Positions 16,345 to 26,480 of a stretch of DNA of 64,000 bases are shown here, piece after piece (within the stretch, counting starts at the first letter, position 1; the number at the start of each line of letters is the position of its first letter). Source of the stretch: Streptomyces sp. SID13031 (GTDB taxonomy: Bacteria > Actinomycetota > Actinomycetes > Propionibacteriales > Kribbellaceae); assembly GCF_010548305.1 (NCBI RefSeq), contig NZ_JAAGLV010000002.1, positions 248,001-312,000 of the forward strand, read 5' to 3'. A program made the position numbers and the translations under genes. A model generated the notes under the pieces. That model searched no databases. It saw only the letters and a program-made list of their open reading frames with translations, and was not told the origin of the DNA.

Positions 16345-17571
16345 CTAGAGCTGGTCGCTTTGATGCTGCCGCACCGGCGTCTGGGCGCCGGCGTTGTTGG
16401 CGACGAAGGCGGTCAAGGCAAGTGCGGCTGTTGCCAACACCGCGCCGGCATACATCGCGGCGCGGGTGCCAGAGGCGTCGACCATCACCGCTCCGATCAG
16501 CGATCCGATGGCGATGGAGCTCTGGAAGATGGCCACGAACATCCCTGACCCGTTCTCGTTGGCTGCTCGAGGGTCGGCGTGGAACAGCCAGGTCTGCAGT
16601 GCGACCGGGACAGCGCCGTAGGCCAGCCCCCAGACCGCAATCACAATGAATGCTCCGGCTGTCCACGTTCCGAAGACCGGCATGAGCAACTGCGAGAGGG
16701 CGAGCACCGCCAGCACACACAGCACCGTCGGACGTAGGGCCCTGGCGAGAGCCGGCGCGGCGGCGAAGTTGCCAAGGATTCCGGCGGCGGCGAATACCAG
16801 AAGCAGCGCGCTGATCAAGGTCGGACTGGCTCCTGTGCGCTGCTGAAGGAAAGGCGCCACGAAGGTGTAGGCGGCGAACTGGGCCGTGATCGTCAGCAAG
16901 GTCATCAGGAGAGCGACGCGCGCTCGGCTGCTGCTGAGCAATGCGCCGAACGAGCGCAGCGTGACTGCCTTTGCCACTGCCAGCCTGGGGAGGAAGATCG
17001 CCTGCAGGATGACAGGCAGCAGGCCGAGAGCCGCCACGATGAGAAACGCTGCGCGCCAGCCGAACTGGTTACCAAGAAGCGGCCCGGCAGGTACGCCCAC
17101 CACGGTCCCGATGGAGATGCCACCGAAGATTAGGGAGGTGGCCTGCTGCCCGAGTTGCTGGGGCACCAGACGGGTTCCGACGCCTACGGCGATGGCCCAG
17201 AATCCGCCGATGCCGATGCCCAGCAGGGCGCGGGCGGCCAGCAGGACGGGAAAGTTGGGTGCCAGGCCGGCCAGGACGTCGGCGAGCACGAACGTGAGGC
17301 TCAGGCCCAGAAGCGCTGCCCGCCGATCGATCCGCTGAAAAAGTACTGGCAGCGCGAGCGCTGACACCGCGGCGATGATCCCCGGGGCGGTGATCATCGT
17401 TCCTGCCGTGGCTTCGGACACGTGCAGGTCGGCCGCGACGTCGCTGAGCAGGCCGACGGGCAGGAATTCGTTGGTGACGAGGGTGAAGCTGCCTACCGCT
17501 ACGGACAGCACGGCAAGCCAGGCCCTCCTTGAGGCTGTGGCTATCGGTGGCGTGGACTCTTCGATACTCAT
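16345..17571 (-). CDS. MFS transporter, AraJ/DHA1 drug-efflux type
   Basis: 408 residues from the second ATG (17571); the first adds MRRAETT only. Twelve helices; the N-terminus WLAVLSVAVGSFTLVTNEFL and PVGLLSDVAADL, plus motif C-like GTVVGVPAGPLLG in helix 5, mark the proton-driven DHA1 efflux group. Second gene of a leftward pair, 48 bp after another MFS gene. Substrate unknown. It is the first gene after the tmRNA terminator and converges on ssrA. Confidence 0.9.
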   Translation of the reverse strand: MSIEESTPPIATASRRAWLAVLSVAVGSFTLVTNEFLPVGLLSDVAADLHVSEATAGTMITAPGIIAAVSALALPVLFQRIDRRAALLGLSLTFVLADVLAGLAPNFPVLLAARALLGIGIGGFWAIAVGVGTRLVPQQLGQQATSLIFGGISIGTVVGVPAGPLLGNQFGWRAAFLIVAALGLLPVILQAIFLPRLAVAKAVTLRSFGALLSSSRARVALLMTLLTITAQFAAYTFVAPFLQQRTGASPTLISALLLVFAAAGILGNFAAAPALARALRPTVLCVLAVLALSQLLMPVFGTWTAGAFIVIAVWGLAYGAVPVALQTWLFHADPRAANENGSGMFVAIFQSSIAIGSLIGAVMVDASGTRAAMYAGAVLATAALALTAFVANNAGAQTPVRQHQSDQL

Positions 17572-17619
17572 GGTGGTCTCTGCTCGTCTCACTGGATGGG
17601 TTGGTGTGGGCCGCCGGTC

Positions 17620-18870
17620 CTATGCGTGCGGTGTCCGTAGCGGGCGGAACAGGCTGGCCAGAGCGAGGGCGGCCAGGAGGATGAGGGCGGCGCCGTACTC
17701 GCGCGCCGCGCCGATCAGGCCCTGCCCGTGGACAGCCAGGAATCCGGCGGCGACCGCTGGTACAGCGAGCCCCACGTAGGAGGTGACATAGAGCAGCGAG
17801 AGCACCCCTGAACGTTCGTGCGCCTCGGCTAGCGGTACTACGGTGCGGACGCTGCCCTGGAAACCACCGCCGAAGCCGATACCGGAGATCACGGTGCCGA
17901 GGAAGAACAGCACCATGGACTTGGCGCTGAGTGCGCCGAGTGTGACCGATACGCCGACGACGAGCGCGAGGATGCTGGTCAGCATCACCGTCCGCGCCCT
18001 CGTACTTCGCAGGATGACTCCGGCAACCGCGGCCACTCCGGCGAGTACCGACAGACTCAGGCTGCCCAGCACGATCGAGCGGGTGCCGCTCAACGTGGAG
18101 ACCAGCGCGGGGCCGAGCGCTCCGTAGAAGCCTGCCAGTGCCCAGACGGCGAAGAGGACCGGAGCGGCTGCGATCACCGAGGTCCGTACCGAGCGCGGCA
18201 ATCTGACATCGGGACGCAGCGTGGCCAGCGCCCCGGGATTGCGGGTGACGGTCTCGCGCATGAAGGCGACCCCGATTGCCTGGAGCACGAAGACGCCGAG
18301 CATGAACAGGTAGATCAGGTGGGTCGGCGCCGGCAGGTAGCGCGCCAGCAGTGCCGACAGGAGTGCGCCGACGGCGGTGCCGGTGCCCGGGGAGACGGCG
18401 TTGGCCAGGGTTCCGCGTTTCGGGTCGACGTCGAGCATGCCCGCACCGATGGCGCCAAGCGCGGCACCGGTGGATAGCCCCTGCAGGACGCGTCCCACCA
18501 TCAGGGCGGGGACTCCACCGGCTGCCGTGAACACCACCATCGCGGCGACCTGAGCGGCGAGCGAGGCGAGCAGGACCGGCCGACGGCCGACGTGATCAGA
18601 CAGCTTGCCGAGGATCAGCAGCCCGGCGAGAACACTCAGGCCGTAGACGCCGAACACGACGGTCGTAGTGATCGATGAGAAGCCCCACCGCGCCTGGTAG
18701 AAGGCGTACAGGGCCGTCGGCGCGCTGGCGCCCGCCAGCATGGAGACGATGAGCGAGGCCAGCAGGTAAAGCTGCGGTGTCCCAGACAGTCGGCGCCCGC
18801 CGGCTCGCGGAGCTGCCTCGGCGCCGGACGCCGGCGCTGTGGCGGGATTCGTCTTCGTACGCCGTGTCAC
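17620..18870 (-). CDS. MFS transporter
   Basis: 416 residues from GTG at 18870, placed six bases after AGGAG; a TTG at 18876 is too close to that site. Twelve helices with the helix 2-3 loop GKLSDHVGRRPV (motif A). About 30 polar residues precede helix 1. It leads the two-pump operon. An inverted repeat similar to the operators near 19310 and 19445 lies 24-41 bp upstream, so it may belong to the same regulon. Confidence 0.9.
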   Translation of the reverse strand: MTRRTKTNPATAPASGAEAAPRAGGRRLSGTPQLYLLASLIVSMLAGASAPTALYAFYQARWGFSSITTTVVFGVYGLSVLAGLLILGKLSDHVGRRPVLLASLAAQVAAMVVFTAAGGVPALMVGRVLQGLSTGAALGAIGAGMLDVDPKRGTLANAVSPGTGTAVGALLSALLARYLPAPTHLIYLFMLGVFVLQAIGVAFMRETVTRNPGALATLRPDVRLPRSVRTSVIAAAPVLFAVWALAGFYGALGPALVSTLSGTRSIVLGSLSLSVLAGVAAVAGVILRSTRARTVMLTSILALVVGVSVTLGALSAKSMVLFFLGTVISGIGFGGGFQGSVRTVVPLAEAHERSGVLSLLYVTSYVGLAVPAVAAGFLAVHGQGLIGAAREYGAALILLAALALASLFRPLRTPHA

Positions 18871-18893
18871 GGTCAACTCCTGGAATCAGTAGC

Positions 18894-18911
18894 CGTGGAC
18901 GTCTGTCCACG
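18894..18911 (-). promoter_or_regulatory. Inverted repeat upstream of the MFS pair
   Basis: CGTGGAC-GTCT-GTCCACG, 7-bp perfect arms. The core TGGAC..GTCTGTCCA resembles the TAGACC.GTCTGTCTA sites 400 bp to the right. It is a possible TetR-type operator for the two-pump operon, or alternatively a hairpin after the VOC gene. Confidence 0.4.
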
Positions 18912-18915
18912 TGGT

Positions 18916-18925
18916 GGGGGGGGGG
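18916..18925. repeat. Run of ten G
   Basis: Homopolymer between the VOC gene stop and the operator of the MFS pair. Such a run is slip-prone. It is outside coding sequence, so its length could only affect spacing or termination. Confidence 0.8.
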
Positions 18926-18927
18926 CT

Positions 18928-19281
18928 TCAGCCGGCGATGAGGTCGAATTCGTTGCCTTCGACATCGGCGAAGGTGGTCCACCGGGCGCCATTGACCTCG
19001 ACCACGTTGAGCTTTGTCGCCCCGAGCGCGAGCAGGCGCTCGGTCTCGCCTTCGTAGTCGCTGGTGATCAGGTCCGGGTGGAACCGGTTCTTGGCGGTCT
19101 TGGTCTCGGGGACCTGGTGGAAGGCCAGCCGAGGTCCGCTGCCGGGATCGTCGGCCTCCACGACGGCGTCCTGCTCGTCGGCCCCTTCGGCGACTCTGCG
19201 GTTCAGTGCCGCGGCCCAGAACTGCGCAGTGTGTGCGGCGTCGGCGGCGTCGAACGACGCGCCGAAGAAGGTGATGTTCAT
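18928..19281 (-). CDS. VOC/glyoxalase-like protein
   Basis: 117 residues, a single vicinal-oxygen-chelate module with paired beta-alpha-beta-beta-beta units. It begins MNITFFGASFDAADAAHTAQ and ends FADVEGNEFDLIAG, the ending typical of this family with the metal-ligand Glu position. Usual jobs are antibiotic binding, glyoxalase or dioxygenase activity; none can be chosen here. It diverges from the SDR gene at 19475; a palindromic operator is 26 bp upstream. Confidence 0.82.
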   Translation of the reverse strand: MNITFFGASFDAADAAHTAQFWAAALNRRVAEGADEQDAVVEADDPGSGPRLAFHQVPETKTAKNRFHPDLITSDYEGETERLLALGATKLNVVEVNGARWTTFADVEGNEFDLIAG

Positions 19282-19306
19282 CGTCGTACTCCTTCGGAAT
19301 GTTTGA

Positions 19307-19324
19307 TTAGACCAGTCTGTCTAA
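19307..19324 (-). promoter_or_regulatory. TetR-type operator upstream of the VOC gene
   Basis: TTAGAC-CAGTCT-GTCTAA, a palindrome with perfect 6-bp arms. The core TAGACCAGTCTGTCT is repeated with one change in opposite orientation at 19440-19454. LmrA/YxaF-type repressors bind TAGACC-GGTCTA-like boxes. Confidence 0.65.
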
Positions 19325-19439
19325 CGCGCGACGCTAGCGCAGATGCGACCATAGCGTCCAGCAAATCGCGCTAAATGTGGATGGCGGGTCGTCTCGACTT
19401 GACGAGAACGAGTCGGTCTGCTCAACTGTTGACCACGAC

Positions 19440-19454
19440 AGACAGACCGGTCTA
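19440..19454 (+). promoter_or_regulatory. TetR-type operator upstream of the SDR gene
   Basis: AGACAGACCGGTCTA contains the perfect palindrome AGACCGGTCT. Its reverse complement, TAGACCGGTCTGTCT, differs from the site at 19309-19323 at one position. It lies 20 bp before the SDR start, so a bound repressor would block both directions. Confidence 0.65.
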
Positions 19455-19474
19455 TTCAATGGAAGGAAGCGATC

Positions 19475-20194
19475 ATGACCGAGATACGCGTAGCTCTGGT
19501 GACGGGGGCGACCTCCGGTATCGGCCGGGCCGCCGCGCTGAAGCTCGCCGGGGACGGATTCAAGGTCCTGGTTCACGGCCGCGACGCCGGGCGCGGAGCC
19601 GCGGTGGTCAAGGAGATCGAGAGCGCGGGTGGAAGCGCGGAGTTCCTCGCCGCGGACCTGGCCGACGTCGCCGCCATCAAGCGACTGGCGGCCGCCGCCG
19701 GGGAGATAGATGTCCTGGTCAACAACGCCGGGTTCTCCTGGTTCGGTCCCACCGCCGACCTGGAGCCCGACACCTTCGACGCACTGTTCGACGCCAACGT
19801 GCGCAGTGCGTACTTCCTGACCGCCGCAATCGCGCCACAGATGGCCGACCGGGGGCGGGGCATCATCATCAACCTGGGCAGCATGGCCGGGCAGATCGGC
19901 CTGGCCGGCGGCGCCGCCTACAGCGCCACCAAGGCCGCGCTCGCCGCGCTGACCCGCTCGTGGGCCGCGGAGTACAGCCCGGCCGGTGTACGGGTCAACA
20001 CGATCACCCCCGGACCGGCCTACACCGGTGGCTCACCGAGGGAAAGGCTCACCGCCCTGGGCAAGACCACGCTTCTGTCCCGCACGGCGGAGGCGGAGGA
20101 GATCGGGGACGTCATCGCGTTCCTGGCGTCACCGGCTGCCAGCTACATCACCGGCGCCGTCATCCCCGTCGACGGCGGACGTACAGCCGTCTGA
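19475..20194 (+). CDS. Short-chain dehydrogenase/reductase (SDR), classical type
   Basis: 239 residues. Rossmann motif TGATSGIG at 10-17, NNAG, catalytic Ser in NLGSMAG, and Tyr/Lys in AAYSATKAALAAL. The C-terminus ITGAVIPVDGGRTAV is the usual classical SDR ending. NAD(P)H-dependent oxidation or reduction of a hydroxyl/carbonyl group. First gene of a rightward trio with an alpha/beta hydrolase and an SMP-30-like protein, under the divergent TetR-type operators. Confidence 0.92.
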   Translation: MTEIRVALVTGATSGIGRAAALKLAGDGFKVLVHGRDAGRGAAVVKEIESAGGSAEFLAADLADVAAIKRLAAAAGEIDVLVNNAGFSWFGPTADLEPDTFDALFDANVRSAYFLTAAIAPQMADRGRGIIINLGSMAGQIGLAGGAAYSATKAALAALTRSWAAEYSPAGVRVNTITPGPAYTGGSPRERLTALGKTTLLSRTAEAEEIGDVIAFLASPAASYITGAVIPVDGGRTAV

Positions 20195-20270
20195 TCCGTC
20201 CAGCCGGCAGGCGAGCCCGCCGTCCGGCCAGCACCGCAGTCAACACGCTGATTCAAGGAGAAGCGCTGTA

Positions 20271-21125
20271 ATGAACGACTACACCCACGACACCGCCCCG
20301 ACCCAGTTCGTCGAGGCCGGCGGCATTCGCTTCGCCTACCGCCGGTTCGGCAATCAGGCCGGCGGCCTGAGCCCGGTCGTGTTCTTCCAGCACTACGTCG
20401 GCAACCTCGACGACCACGACCCGGCGATCAGCGACGGGTTCGCCACCGACCGCGAGGTCATCCTGTTCAACAACACGGGAGTCGCGTCCACCAGCGGCGT
20501 CGTACCGGACACCATCGAGCAGATGGCCGCTGACGCCGCGACGTTCATCGACGCCCTGGGCCTGACAAGTGTGGACCTGGTCGGCCACTCCATGGGCGGA
20601 CTGGTCGTGCAGGAGGTTGCCATCCAGCGGCCGGACCTGGTGCGCAAGCTGGTTCTTGTCGGCACCGGCCCGCGTGGCGGCGTGGGCATCGGCGAAACGC
20701 CGCCGGAGACGGGCGCACTCTTCGGCGTCAAACTCCCGCGGCAGGAAGACATGTGGTTGCCGATCCTGTTCTCCCCGACCGAGACCAGCCAGCAGCTGGG
20801 GCGCAAGTACGTCGAGCGGATCGTGGCCCGCGAGGACCGCGACGACTCGCCGTTCGGTGGGCAGGTCTGGGCCGGCCAGGGCGCTGCGATCCACGCCTAC
20901 GGCACGACGAAGGATCCCGCGTACGCGATCTTGAAGAACATCAAGGCTCCGGTTCTCGTGGTCAACGGCACCGACGACATCATCATCGCGACGATCAACT
21001 CGTACATCCTTCAGCAGTTCCTGCCGAACGCCGAGCTGATCCTCTACCCGGACGCCAACCACGGCTCGCACTTCCAGTACCCACAGCGGTTCGTCACCCA
21101 CGCCAAGCTGTTCCTCGACAGCTGA
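20271..21125 (+). CDS. Alpha/beta hydrolase
   Basis: 284 residues from ATG 20271 behind AAGGAG. Nucleophile elbow VGHSMGGL, acid in VVNGTDDIII, and His in YPDANHGSHFQYP give a complete triad. The N-terminal FFQHYVGNLDDHDP region is an oxyanion-loop variant seen in dehalogenase or haloperoxidase-like hydrolases. Cytoplasmic. Co-transcribed with the SDR gene (76 bp upstream) and the SMP-30-like gene (14 bp downstream). Confidence 0.9.
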   Translation: MNDYTHDTAPTQFVEAGGIRFAYRRFGNQAGGLSPVVFFQHYVGNLDDHDPAISDGFATDREVILFNNTGVASTSGVVPDTIEQMAADAATFIDALGLTSVDLVGHSMGGLVVQEVAIQRPDLVRKLVLVGTGPRGGVGIGETPPETGALFGVKLPRQEDMWLPILFSPTETSQQLGRKYVERIVAREDRDDSPFGGQVWAGQGAAIHAYGTTKDPAYAILKNIKAPVLVVNGTDDIIIATINSYILQQFLPNAELILYPDANHGSHFQYPQRFVTHAKLFLDS

Positions 21126-21139
21126 GGAAGAGAACCAGC

Positions 21140-22102
21140 ATGTCCAAGAAATTCCTGTCGAAAGCACTCGCAGGTGTCATCGCCGTGGCCGCCACGGCGG
21201 TCGCCTCGGTCACCCCTGCCCAATCGGTAGCGGCTCCGCTCTCCGATCCACGCATCCAGGTTCACTTCAACCTCAAGGCGAATCAACGGCCTGAGACGAT
21301 CATCATCGCGCCTGACGGCGCCGCACTCGTCGGGCTGGCCGGCAGCAACCAGGTCGTCCGGGTGAGTCCGAGCGGCGAGGTGCAGACCCTTGGGACGCTC
21401 CCAGCCGCACCCGATGGCGGTGCCGGGGTTCCGATCCTCGGCTACTCACTGCTCACGGGCCTCGTCCGGACCAGCGACGGCACCCTGTACGTCGGCTACG
21501 TCACCGGCCGAGACGACCTCAACGGCATCTGGCGGATCCGCCCGGGCAAGTTGCCGCAACGGATCGTCGCCACCCCCGGCAACGGGTTCCCCAACGGTAT
21601 GGATGTCGACGAGCGTACCGGCCAGCTCTACTTCAGCGACTCGGTGCTGGGACTGATCTGGCGGGCCCCGCTGACCGGCGGCAAGCCGACGGTGTGGCTG
21701 CGCGCCCCGCAGTTCACTCGCACCGACGTCCTGGGCGTCAACGGCCTGAAGATCCGCAACGGTGCCGTGTGGGCGACGAACACGGACCAGGGCACATTGA
21801 TGCGCATCCCCATCCGGCATGGCGGACGCCCGGGGCCGGTACAGGCCAGGTCGAGCGGCATCCAGGGGATCGACGACTTCGCCTTCGTCGGCGACTCCGA
21901 TTCCGTGATCGCCGCGGTCAACCTGCCCAACCGCGTCGACCTCATCCGCGCGGATGGCTCGCACTCCGCCGTGCTCGAGGCCAGTGACGGCATCAGTGGC
22001 CCGACCACCGTCGCGATCCGGGGCAAGTCGATCTATGTAGCCAGTGCGTCCTTCCTTCTCAACGAGGACCCGAACCTCCTTCTGGCAGCGCTGACCCCCT
22101 GA
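21140..22102 (+). CDS. Secreted SMP-30/gluconolactonase-like beta-propeller protein
   Basis: 320 residues. Signal peptide MSKKFLSKALAGVIAVAATA to about residue 32 (VAAPLS). Then blades of a six-fold propeller: DGAALVGLAGSN, DGTLYVGYVTG, NGFPNGMDVDERTGQLYFSD, NGLKIRNGAVWATN. The FPNGMDVD...YFSDS pattern resembles the metal-site strands of SMP-30 lactonases. It acts outside the cell, perhaps as a lactonase. Last gene of the trio. Confidence 0.82.
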   Translation: MSKKFLSKALAGVIAVAATAVASVTPAQSVAAPLSDPRIQVHFNLKANQRPETIIIAPDGAALVGLAGSNQVVRVSPSGEVQTLGTLPAAPDGGAGVPILGYSLLTGLVRTSDGTLYVGYVTGRDDLNGIWRIRPGKLPQRIVATPGNGFPNGMDVDERTGQLYFSDSVLGLIWRAPLTGGKPTVWLRAPQFTRTDVLGVNGLKIRNGAVWATNTDQGTLMRIPIRHGGRPGPVQARSSGIQGIDDFAFVGDSDSVIAAVNLPNRVDLIRADGSHSAVLEASDGISGPTTVAIRGKSIYVASASFLLNEDPNLLLAALTP

Positions 22103-22193
22103 CTTCGGCGCGGCGTAGGCACACTGGGCAGACGGAGCTGTCTAGGCGTGTTCTATCAGGTGGGGCTCGGATAGGCCGCCGATTGGAGCAGTA

Positions 22194-22209
22194 GACTGTA
22201 CCGACAGTC
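22194..22209 (+). promoter_or_regulatory. Palindromic operator before the TetR gene
   Basis: GACTGT-ACCG-ACAGTC, perfect 6-bp arms, ending 17 bp before the TetR start. Probably its self-regulation site. It differs from the TAGACC..GTCT boxes in spacing, though both share GTCTGTC/GACTGT-like half-sites. Confidence 0.6.
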
Positions 22210-22226
22210 CAGTAGAAGGAAGAGCT

Positions 22227-22817
22227 ATGCCGAGCAATGTGACGACCTCGAAGCCGTCCGCGCGTGAACGGCTGCTGGCCGCCGCCGATGAGCTCTTCTA
22301 CCGCGACGGTGTGCAGAGCGTCGGCATCGACCGGATCGTGCAACAGGCCGGTGTCGCCAAGGCATCGCTCTACAACCTGTTCGGCAGCAAAGAAGAACTG
22401 GTCAAGGCCTATCTCGACGCCCGCCACGCCAGCACCCGCGAACACGTCGAACGCACTCTGACCCGGTTCCGGACCCCGCGCGAGCGTCTCCTGGGAGTCT
22501 TCGACGCCCAGGGCCAGATCTTCACCGACCCCGACTTCAACGGCTGCGCCCACATCACGGCCAGCGCCGAGGCGCTGCCCGGAAGCCCCGTCGAGTGCGC
22601 CGCGGACCGCTACCGGTCCTGGGTCAGGACGATGTTCACGGACCTCGCGCGGGAAGCGGGCGTCGCCGACGCCGAAGGACTGGCCAGGCAACTGCACCTC
22701 CTGTACGACGGCGCCGGGGTATCGGCACGGATGGACCGAGACCCCTCGGCGGCGACCACCGCTCGAGAGGCCGCGGCCATGCTGTTCGACACCGCGGTCA
22801 AGGCGCCGAACTCCTGA
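22227..22817 (+). CDS. TetR-family regulator
   Basis: 196 residues. The N-terminal helix-turn-helix (about 15-60) reads RERLLAAADELFYRDGVQSV, then GIDRIVQQAGVAKASLYNLF. The C-terminal half is of the type found in YxaF/LmrA-like regulators (FNGCAHITASAEALPGSP, Cys included). Start behind GGAAGAG. It follows the SDR-hydrolase-SMP-30 trio and is the best candidate repressor for the operators at 19307 and 19440, since it is the only TetR gene in this block (inference). Confidence 0.9.
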   Translation: MPSNVTTSKPSARERLLAAADELFYRDGVQSVGIDRIVQQAGVAKASLYNLFGSKEELVKAYLDARHASTREHVERTLTRFRTPRERLLGVFDAQGQIFTDPDFNGCAHITASAEALPGSPVECAADRYRSWVRTMFTDLAREAGVADAEGLARQLHLLYDGAGVSARMDRDPSAATTAREAAAMLFDTAVKAPNS

Positions 22818-23596: not shown

Positions 23597-24268
23597 ATGG
23601 CGGTGCCGGTCGGGCGGCGATGGGAAGTGGCCGCGTTCTTGGCGCTGACCGTGGCGACGGGTTTGGTCGACGCGGTCAGTTATCTGGCGCTCGGGCATAC
23701 CTTTGTGGCGAACATGACCGGCAACGTGGTGTTTCTGGGGTTCGCGCTGTCGCCGGAATCGGGGTTCACGGTGGTGGCGCCGCTGGTCTCGTTGGCCGGG
23801 TTCCTGCTCGGCTCGTTGATCGGGGCACGGGCCGCGAGGGCTCTGGAGAACAGGGTGCATCGGTGGCTCGGGTTCGTGTTCGTGGCGCAGGCTTCGGTGA
23901 TCGCCGTTGCCGCGCTGCTGGTGGGGACGGACGTACTGCACCGGACGGGCGGTACGTCACACGTGTTGATCTTGATGCTGGCCACCTGTTTCGGTTGGCA
24001 GAATGCGATCGTGCGTTATGCCGCGCCGAAGGACCTGACCACCACGGTGCTCACCCTGACGCTGACCGGGCTGGCTGCGGACGGTGTCCTGGGAGGCGGC
24101 AAGGATGCCAAACCACACCGCCGGCTCGGCTCGGTCGCCGCGATGTTCGCCGGTGCCGGCGTGGGCGCCTTGTTGCTGCAGGCAACCATGGCCGGTGTCC
24201 TCGGCCTCGCCGCCGTGGCCGTCGCCATCGCCGCGTCGATCTTCCTCTTCGGGCCGGCAGCTAGCTAA
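23597..24268 (+). CDS. YoaK/DUF1275-family membrane protein
   Basis: 223 residues from ATG 23597. Six membrane helices; the family marks GLVDAVSYLALGHTFVANM and TGNVVFLG are in the first loop, and CFGWQNAIVRY in the middle. Function of the family is not established; it is sometimes called a transporter-like protein. It follows the zinc-ribbon gene by 10 bp and converges on a TetR gene with 8 bp overlap. Confidence 0.9.
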   Translation: MAVPVGRRWEVAAFLALTVATGLVDAVSYLALGHTFVANMTGNVVFLGFALSPESGFTVVAPLVSLAGFLLGSLIGARAARALENRVHRWLGFVFVAQASVIAVAALLVGTDVLHRTGGTSHVLILMLATCFGWQNAIVRYAAPKDLTTTVLTLTLTGLAADGVLGGGKDAKPHRRLGSVAAMFAGAGVGALLLQATMAGVLGLAAVAVAIAASIFLFGPAAS

Positions 24269-24914
24269 GATGCCTGGCGAGGCCGTCGACCAGGAGTTGG
24301 AGGCCGAAGCGGAACTCCTCGTCCAGGGAGTTGGGTAGGAAAGACGCTGAGGTCACGGTGGCGGGGTAGTGGGCGGGGTCGAGGGAGCGATAGAAATCGC
24401 TGAGGTCTTGATGTGTATCTGTGCTGTCACCGCCGCGTAGCTGGCCGGCGAAGCCGATGACGTAGTGGCCGATGGCGGTGTAGGCCCTGGCGGCGATATC
24501 GGGAGGGAATCCACTGGCGAGCAGGATGCCGATCGCGGCTTCTCGGCCGGCCAGTCCGTGCGGACCGAGCGGAACGTGGTTGTCGAAGAGCGGTACTACG
24601 TTCGGATGTTGCTGCAGGGTCCGGAACAAGGCCTCGGCGCCGGCGATGAGCCGCTCCTGCCAGGTCGAGTCGTCCGGCAGGTCGACAACATGCCGAGGTG
24701 CCTCGCCGAGTACACGATCCACAACGTGGATGAGGATCGCGTCCTTGCCGGCGAAGTGGCGGTACAGGGTGGCTGTGCTCGACTCCAGCCGTTGCGCCAG
24801 CACTCTCATGCTGAAGTCGGCCGGTCCCAGTTCGTCGACGAGTTCGACGGCGGCGTCGATGACGCGGTCGACCGAGATCGAGGGGCGCCCCGGGCGGGAC
24901 CTTTTGTGCGGCAT
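24261..24914 (-). CDS. TetR-family regulator (TetR_C_1 type)
   Basis: 217 residues. N-terminal MPHKRSRPGRPSISVDRVID and the recognition part STATLYRHFAGKDAI. The C-terminal half is of the tetracycline-repressor-like group (ALFRTLQQHPNVVPLF). No Shine-Dalgarno precedes ATG 24914; TACAGT lies eight bases upstream within the operator, so a leaderless transcript is likely. It is divergent from the flavin monooxygenase and probably represses it and itself through the two palindromes between them. Confidence 0.92.
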   Translation of the reverse strand: MPHKRSRPGRPSISVDRVIDAAVELVDELGPADFSMRVLAQRLESSTATLYRHFAGKDAILIHVVDRVLGEAPRHVVDLPDDSTWQERLIAGAEALFRTLQQHPNVVPLFDNHVPLGPHGLAGREAAIGILLASGFPPDIAARAYTAIGHYVIGFAGQLRGGDSTDTHQDLSDFYRSLDPAHYPATVTSASFLPNSLDEEFRFGLQLLVDGLARHLS

Positions 24915-24917
24915 TGT

Positions 24918-24957
24918 GGCTACACTGTAGCCGAAACGTATCGACTACGGTGTAGCC
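24918..24957. promoter_or_regulatory. Double palindromic TetR operator
   Basis: GGCTACA-C-TGTAGCC at 24918-24932 is a perfect 15-bp palindrome. GACTACGGTGTAGCC at 24943-24957 is a second, imperfect copy, centre to centre 25 bp. The outer ends GTGGCTACAC (24916-24925) and GTGTAGCCAC (24950-24959) are also perfect inverted repeats. The pair fills the 63-bp gap between the divergent genes. Confidence 0.8.
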
Positions 24958-24977
24958 ACTATTCGGGGAGAAGTGCC

Positions 24978-26480
24978 GTGACCCATGACATCGACGTACT
25001 GGTGGTCGGAGCCGGCCCGGTCGGGTCCGCGCTGGCGGCCGACATGCTGCGGCGAGACCTGCGTGTTCGCCTGATCGACAAGGCGCCGCACGCGTTCGAA
25101 GGGTCTCGCGCCAAGGGAGTGCAGCCGCGGACCCAGGAGGTCTTCGAAGATCTCGGCGTGCTGGCCGAGGCGCATGCGGAGGGCGGCACATACCCGTTGC
25201 TGGGTATCCATCTCGGACCGATCACCGTGCCGTGGCGGATGCAGCGCCGGTACGAGCCGACGCCGGAGGTGCCGCACCCGAACATCCTGCTGCTACCGCA
25301 ATCTCGCACCGACGCCATCCTGCACCGGCTGCTCGACCGGCTCGGCCTGCGGATCGAGTTCGGCGTTGCGCTGGAAGGCTTCGAGCAGGACGGCGACGGT
25401 GTGACCGCGACGCTGTCCTCGGGGGAGCGGGTGCGCAGCAAGTACCTGGTCGGCGCCGACGGCGGCGGGAGCGCAGTACGGAAGTCCGCCGGCCTGCAGT
25501 TCGCGGGGGAGACCGACCAGTCCGACCGGACGCTGATCGTGGACGCCACGATCGACGGGCTGTCTCGCAAGCGGTGGCACGTCTGGCCGCGTCCGGGCGG
25601 CCGGTTCGTCGGAGCATGCCCGCTGCCCCACTCCGAGCAGTTCCAGTTGATGTTCCGTCTGAAGCCGGAGGAGGCGCCGGAGGTCGACGAGGCTGCGCTG
25701 GCGGCGCGGTTCCACTCGCTCACCGGCCTCAGGCTTCGCGATGTCACCTGGACCTCGGTGTTCCGGCCGAACATCCGGATCGTCGAGCACTACCGCGCCG
25801 GCCGGGTGTTCGTGGCGGGCGACGCCGCGCACGTGCACACTCCGGCCGGCGCGCAGGGGCTCAATACCGGAGTACAGGATGCCTACAACCTGGGGTGGAA
25901 ACTCGGCCAGGTCATCGCCGGCGCACCGGACTCCCTGCTCGACAGCTACGAGGCCGAACGGCGGCCGGTCGCCGCGCGAGTTCTCGGCCGGTCCACCGAG
26001 CTTTACGCCGGTCTCGACCAGCGCAAGCTCGCGAGCCTCAAGCGCGGAGACGAGGAACGGCAGATCGGGCTCTCCTATCGAGGTGGTCCACTCGCTCCCG
26101 CCGACGGACTGGCTACCAAGACCCTGCAGGTAGGCGATCGCGCGCCGGACGCGCCGTGTACCGGGCCTGGCGTCAGCAGGTTGTTCGACGCCTACCGGGG
26201 ACCGCATTTCACCCTGCTGGCCTTCGGCCCCACAGCCATCGGGACGCTGCCGGAGCTGGCCTGGCCGGATGGTGGCGCCGAACTTCGTTGCTATGCGGTG
26301 CGCTCAGAGGGTGATGGGGATCAGAGCAGCCTCGCTGACACCACCGGCCAGGTCGCCAGAATCTATGGGATAACAGGCGACGTACTGATCCTGATCCGGC
26401 CGGACGGATACATCGGAAACATCATCGGGTCGGACTGGTCGGCCGGCTTCGCTGCCACAGCCAAAGGATTGGCGCCCTAG
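24978..26480 (+). CDS. FAD-dependent aromatic monooxygenase (PheA/TfdB family)
   Basis: 500 residues from GTG 24978 behind GGGGAG. FAD-binding GAGPVGSALAADML near the N-terminus, the DG motif VGADGGGSAVRKSAG, and the second FAD motif FVAGDAAHVHTPAGAQG with NTGVQDAYNLGWKL. The C-terminal 120 residues are the thioredoxin-like domain of phenol hydroxylase-type enzymes. It hydroxylates an aromatic or polyketide with NAD(P)H and O2. The divergent TetR suggests induction by its substrate. Rifampicin monooxygenases belong to the same family, so an antibiotic substrate is possible. Confidence 0.9.
   Translation: MTHDIDVLVVGAGPVGSALAADMLRRDLRVRLIDKAPHAFEGSRAKGVQPRTQEVFEDLGVLAEAHAEGGTYPLLGIHLGPITVPWRMQRRYEPTPEVPHPNILLLPQSRTDAILHRLLDRLGLRIEFGVALEGFEQDGDGVTATLSSGERVRSKYLVGADGGGSAVRKSAGLQFAGETDQSDRTLIVDATIDGLSRKRWHVWPRPGGRFVGACPLPHSEQFQLMFRLKPEEAPEVDEAALAARFHSLTGLRLRDVTWTSVFRPNIRIVEHYRAGRVFVAGDAAHVHTPAGAQGLNTGVQDAYNLGWKLGQVIAGAPDSLLDSYEAERRPVAARVLGRSTELYAGLDQRKLASLKRGDEERQIGLSYRGGPLAPADGLATKTLQVGDRAPDAPCTGPGVSRLFDAYRGPHFTLLAFGPTAIGTLPELAWPDGGAELRCYAVRSEGDGDQSSLADTTGQVARIYGITGDVLILIRPDGYIGNIIGSDWSAGFAATAKGLAP

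Follow-up and report, generated by a model that had tools for sequence, protein, structure and literature searches.

A putative TetR repressor and its conserved TAGAC-N6-GTCTA boxes at a detoxification and efflux locus of Streptomyces sp. SID13031

Within a stretch of 64,000 nucleotides from Streptomyces sp. SID13031 (contig NZ_JAAGLV010000002.1, positions 248,001 to 312,000; "the window" below), a gene for a TetR-family protein lies beside genes for a VOC protein, an SDR oxidoreductase, an alpha/beta hydrolase, an SGL-type protein and two MFS pumps. Our analysis indicates that this TetR protein is very probably a local, ligand-released repressor that would control the VOC and SDR-hydrolase genes and at least one pump gene through the palindrome TAGAC-N6-GTCTA at three sites. 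The basis for this is the boxes, their conservation, and the way in which recognition helix, box and partner genes correspond from genome to genome. Regulation of this kind, a local TetR-family detoxification and efflux regulon, is ordinary; the regulator and its box seem not to have been described before, as no TetR work was among the matches listed in a literature search with the box in several spellings, and a search with combined terms returned no description of the regulon in the titles and abstract beginnings of the matches listed. An earlier sequence-only reading of this DNA had already proposed one TetR regulon with shared operators; it was mostly right, and its operator set and family assignment are corrected here.

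Three predicted operators at the TetR locus

The earlier reading placed boxes at 19309 and, inverted, at 19454, on both sides of the divergent region between the VOC and SDR genes. Both are present and exact, the first beginning one base earlier, at 19308: the 15-mers TAGACCAGTCTGTCT (19308-19322, plus strand) and TAGACCGGTCTGTCT (19440-19454, minus strand) lie inside this 193-bp region, and each belongs to a 16-bp palindrome of the form TAGAC-N6-GTCTA. The search of the genome for further copies that it suggested added one box missed earlier, at 22129-22144, within the 124 bp that precede tetR. Among the matches listed, no site outside the locus was supported as a further member of the regulon. 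The predicted operators and the genes of the locus are as follows.

19308..19323: operator 1 (predicted), TAGACCAGTCTGTCTA; no mismatches; 26 bp before the VOC start, a position kept in relatives
19439..19454: operator 2 (predicted), CAGACAGACCGGTCTA; 1 mismatch; before the SDR start; conserved in relatives
22129..22144: operator 3 (predicted, likely auto-regulatory), CAGACGGAGCTGTCTA; 1 mismatch; 83-98 bp before the tetR start
22227..22817, plus strand: TetR-family protein of 196 amino acids, predicted repressor; TetR_N at 53.4 bits against a cut-off of 24, and helix-box correspondence
18928..19281, minus strand: VOC protein (Glyoxalase_6; Pfam), first gene of the leftward unit
17620..18876, minus strand: MFS pump 1 (Pfam), downstream of VOC; likely start at the GTG at 18870
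16345..17592, minus strand: MFS pump 2 (Pfam); possible inner ATG start near 17571
19475..20194, plus strand: SDR oxidoreductase (Pfam), first gene of the rightward unit; 82-88% identity in the closest loci
20271..21125, plus strand: alpha/beta hydrolase (Pfam); 85-88% identity in six of the closest loci
21140..22102, plus strand: SGL-type (SMP-30/gluconolactonase-like) protein; SGL at 31.7 bits against a cut-off of 26.3

At up to one mismatch, TAGAC-N6-GTCTA occurs at 52 sites in the 8.52-Mb genome, about one per 164 kb, and three of these belong to the TetR locus, in its two short gaps between genes. A shuffle test over the window at three mismatches was not significant (3 found, 1.98 expected); because this test was weak, conservation was then tested, and as judged from sequence the significance of the boxes comes from their near-exact matches together with that conservation. 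Weaker sites came to totals of 52 for TAGAC-N6-GTCTA and 195 for a refined pattern, TAGACMGRYCKGTCTA, and regulon membership was judged among the matches listed. The refined pattern has three genome sites at up to one mismatch; two are operators of the locus, and the third (C58:555329) lies right beside the segment matched in another TetR-like gene and is therefore probably inside that gene.

Conservation of the box and of its partner genes

Using the TetR protein as query against species genomes, we obtained 31 loci. The eight nearest (L038-L044 and L048), from Streptomyces, Nonomuraea and Catenulispora, encode TetR proteins 80-89% identical to that of the window and carry a box at either end of the stretch that precedes SDR. 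Roughly 83-100 bp before tetR, an offset that operator 3 matches, seven of the eight have a further box at up to one mismatch, and L038 has one at two mismatches. A VOC homologue (78-83% identity) occupies the same position in four relatives' loci. The fullest unit among relatives reads VOC | SDR-second SDR-hydrolase-TetR, with a DUF427 gene beside VOC in some; the window unit lacks the second SDR gene and has the SGL gene in its place. The small DUF427 protein recurs with the relatives' TetR unit (L041, L042, L044, L045 and L046) and is not in the window unit; these partners were recognised by sequence, and Pfam was run on two of them.

To keep judgement by eye out of the choice of motif, we compared 11,264 palindromic motifs (all 5-base arms, spacers of 2-12) at up to one mismatch in 32 upstream regions, with the window left out. 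TAGAC-N6-GTCTA came first, the next ranks being shifted versions of the same box. It was found in 30 of the 32 regions, a count that is affected by their hand-picked selection before partner genes in loci already known to hold boxes, whereas the ranking against other motifs is unaffected. The two regions lacking the motif are the tetR regions of L038 (two mismatches) and L049. In relatives from Paraburkholderia and Pseudomonas (30-41% identical), the palindromes before tetR are different ones, as judged by eye.

The box was also followed against the recognition helix in a set of 50 TetR homologues that contains the window protein itself; boxes were counted within 3.2 kb, or less for short loci. 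The initial count gave a box in 31 of the 50, all 31 with the helix VAK[AG][ST]LY. One of the 19 initially box-less homologues, L089, lies on a short locus and has VAKASLY; a longer stretch of it (L093) holds two boxes between a second SDR and the hydrolase. With this stretch read, the helix is found in 32/32 box-bearing loci and 0/18 box-less ones, and a near form, VAKTSLY, occurs in the box-less L062. Longer stretches were re-read for L089 and L017 only; the latter, a same-genome paralogue (59% identical; longer as L094), has the helix SKKSLYT and no box in 5 kb.

Several relatives carry tandem boxes 31 bp apart (L043 3291/3322, L046 4145/4176, L047 4529/4560, L091 2953/2984), a spacing of about three helical turns that suggests cooperating dimers. 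L043 has a weak additional operator 31 bp upstream of the one corresponding to operator 2, and L046 and L047 have it as tandem boxes; its counterpart was not recognised by eye at window position 19408.

Membership of the pumps and the SGL gene

A search with pump 1 alone through 394 genomes of the class gave 15 loci besides the window's own. Nine have the box and an adjoining TetR relative (44-64% identical), and six have neither. In L075/L092, which are on the same contig, the TetR gene is followed by three boxes and then, on the opposite strand, by SDR-VOC-pump 1, the TetR of L075 being seen in L092. Five TetR-led loci (L046, L047, L049, L051 and L055) likewise have a pump-1 homologue (59-62% identical) preceding TetR, with boxes before the pump. 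Since both sets of loci link pump 1 with this TetR and box, we regard it as a usual partner of the regulator; only about 50 bp separate it from VOC, which precedes it on the same strand, and its transcription probably starts at the VOC promoter.

This comparison of sequences supports a single regulon that takes in VOC, SDR, hydrolase, TetR and pump 1, all of which recur in relatives' loci; for pump 2, which comes closely after pump 1, and for the SGL-type protein, the lactonase of the earlier reading, membership is based on gene order only.

A predicted promoter before SDR and two further palindromes

Three further elements lie in the intergenic regions of the locus.

19399..19427, plus strand: inferred SDR promoter, TTGACG (19399-19404), 17 nt, TCAACT (19422-19427)
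18894..18911: palindrome CGTGGACGTCTGTCCACG (CGTGGAC-GTCT-GTCCACG), between VOC and pump 1
22192..22211: element TAGACTG-TACCGA-CAGTCCA before the tetR ribosome-binding site, largely conserved in nine aligned sequences

The TTGAC of the putative promoter (19399-19403) and the outer T's of its second hexamer (19422 and 19427) are invariant across nine aligned sequences; a sigma-70 consensus scan and a terminator scan reported nothing. Operator 2 begins 11 bp past the second hexamer.

The palindrome at 18894-18911 had been taken for a third, related box before the pump operon. The sequence exists as a single exact copy in the genome (0 mismatches), but its relation to the box does not hold: it has one half in common (GTCTGTCCA against GTCTGTCTA), its left half is mismatched, its spacer is 4 bp and not 6 bp, and no more than one of the 32 relatives' upstream regions contains its arms. 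We therefore rejected it as another copy. Perfect inverted repeats with 7-bp arms and loops of 3-8 are common in the window (52), and this one may serve as operator for a different protein or form an RNA hairpin in the VOC-pump 1 gap. The same gap contains a run of ten G's (18916-18925), a possible slippage site.

Inside the element at 22192-22211 is an inverted repeat, GACTGT-ACCG-ACAGTC (22194-22209), whose spacing differs from that of the TAGAC box. This element may be a promoter element, a second operator or a leader hairpin.

Proposed mechanism and alternative explanations

From these patterns we infer binding, repression and induction along the following lines. A TetR dimer would bind the 16-bp palindrome over the promoter region of VOC (with pump 1 and pump 2 behind it), another just downstream of the SDR-hydrolase-SGL promoter, and a third before its own gene, giving auto-regulation. 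At operator 2 the dimer would stand in the way of transcription initiation or of early elongation, a step suggested by the 11 bp between this operator and the promoter hexamer. If the protein behaves as TetR-family regulators do in general, a toxic small molecule would release it and switch on both arms and tetR. The enzymes and one or more of the MFS pumps would then be made together, the former to change the molecule by oxidation or reduction, hydrolysis or other modification, the latter to export it. Structure-database searches with the hydrolase, VOC and pump proteins matched only uncharacterised or distant relatives, so the substrate cannot be named; the curated NCBIfam name models likewise give no narrower gene names, the matches listed scoring below their cut-offs, and defence-system models had 0 matches to seven proteins.

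Some observations weigh against this reading. Directly before pump 1 there is no box of 6-bp spacing, and its control would need read-through from VOC or another site. No pump 2 homologue was found near relatives' boxes at an identity of at least 35% (TetR-led loci) or at least 33% (pump-1-led loci), and the SGL gene has no match in the relatives' units of either kind, appearing as a local addition. The tetR-proximal box keeps nine of ten arm positions and lacks the central bases of the relatives' boxes. Finally, the homologues share descent, so the match of helix and box is consistent evidence and not 32 independent events.

The most serious alternative, which we nevertheless consider unlikely, is that TetR controls only VOC, SDR-hydrolase (perhaps with SGL) and itself, the pumps forming a separate operon under another regulator that acts on the 18894 palindrome. 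That palindrome is indeed directly before pump 1 with a spacing unlike that of the box, and the closest VOC loci (L038, L041, L042 and L043) have the VOC|SDR arrangement without these pumps nearby; yet homologues of pump 1 were tied to TetR and box in nine of 15 independently found loci and in the five TetR-led ones, and the VOC-pump 1 gap is short, with both genes leftward. It is far less probable that another TetR or a MarR protein binds the boxes and the neighbouring TetR is a bystander. The genome does have 29 TetR-like matches at E <= 0.001 (TetR itself included), but from one genome to another this TetR clade and the box occur as a pair, and homologues with a different recognition helix lack the box. 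Chance boxes, or a structural repeat with no regulatory role, would agree with the non-significant shuffle test at three mismatches; the motif's first rank and its recurrence across genera make this hardly credible. A local TetR regulon with operators at 19308, 19439 and 22129 remains our preferred explanation.

Relation to known TetR systems

The TetR gene had been assigned to a YxaF/LmrA-like type. This subtype was rejected: PF21993 (LmrA/YxaF-like C-terminal) scores 16.3 bits against a cut-off of 27. PF16925 scores better (20.9, its cut-off also being 27); in L046, a relative, it reaches 28.0 and passes. By sequence, the closest solved relatives are PDB 3jsj (E 6e-25) and 3g7r (E 6e-22), both uncharacterised TetR-family proteins recorded as putative regulators.

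The TetR-family protein NemR of Escherichia coli regulates nemA and gloA, and its box, TAGACC-N4-GGTCTA, differs from 19308-19323 at one specified base. NemR is a distant homologue of the window TetR (PDB 4yze, E 1.8e-7), and no NemR model is among its 16 NCBIfam matches. Both systems seem to be concerned with toxic small molecules and a VOC/glyoxalase-type enzyme, whereas the partners of the window TetR are an SDR, a hydrolase and an MFS pump. The Gly-Cys pair of NemR aligns with Gly106-Cys107 of the window protein, where Cys107 is invariant in 14 aligned proteins; the pair is present in 50/50 TetR homologues and therefore does not single out a redox sensor, leaving thiol sensing as only a possibility. 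LmrA and YxaF (QdoR) of Bacillus subtilis are likewise TetR repressors of efflux and detoxification genes, and the YxaF structure 1sgm matches the window TetR about as distantly as NemR does (E 4.9e-7). NemR is described in general terms only (PMC6790063). QdoR is described as having a pair of operators at its target and a single one at the qdoR gene itself (PMC8481877), in outline the same arrangement as at the window locus.

A wider interpretation, which we offer as speculative and rather improbable, is that a previously undescribed actinobacterial TetR clade, with the helix VAK[AG][ST]LY and a near-invariant operator, runs a mix-and-match detoxification regulon that would sense a shared class of reactive toxins. 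Operator and helix would stay fixed while SDR, second SDR, hydrolase, VOC, DUF427 and MFS pump are reshuffled between genera, and sensing might perhaps occur partly via Cys107, by analogy with NemR and electrophiles.

Distribution and significance

Among 38 genomes of the genus, pump 1 was found in the window's genome only (cut-off 1e-80; strength like E <= 1e-100), as was a TetR orthologue (cut-off 1e-40); two other genomes of the genus have a TetR match, 58-59% identical and of the box-less helix type. With pump 1 and the TetR orthologue confined to one of the 38 genomes, and TetRs 80-89% identical present in other families, this distribution suggests horizontal transfer of the locus. Its G+C content equals that of the window (67.3% vs 67.5%), so composition argues neither for nor against transfer.

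The precise pairing of operator and recognition helix, in a clade that spans Streptomyces, Nonomuraea, Catenulispora, Streptosporangium, Mycobacterium and others, would let regulators be assigned to targets from sequence in many unannotated detoxification and efflux clusters. Identifying the inducer would give a clue to what the SDR, hydrolase, VOC and pump proteins act on, and the operator-TetR pair could be used as a component of biosensors.

Beyond tetR, 0.8 kb away, the window has a DUF1275 gene (23597-24268); in L084 (3649-4188) a DUF1275 gene, 41% identical to it, adjoins a box-bearing TetR. A second TetR gene follows at 24261-24914 on the minus strand, its best model being the tetracycline repressor TetR (70 bits, below the cut-off of 265). 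It is divergent to an open reading frame that starts near 24978 and appears by eye to be flavin monooxygenase-like, and inverted repeats of the GTGGCTACAC type lie between the two (window 24261-24960).

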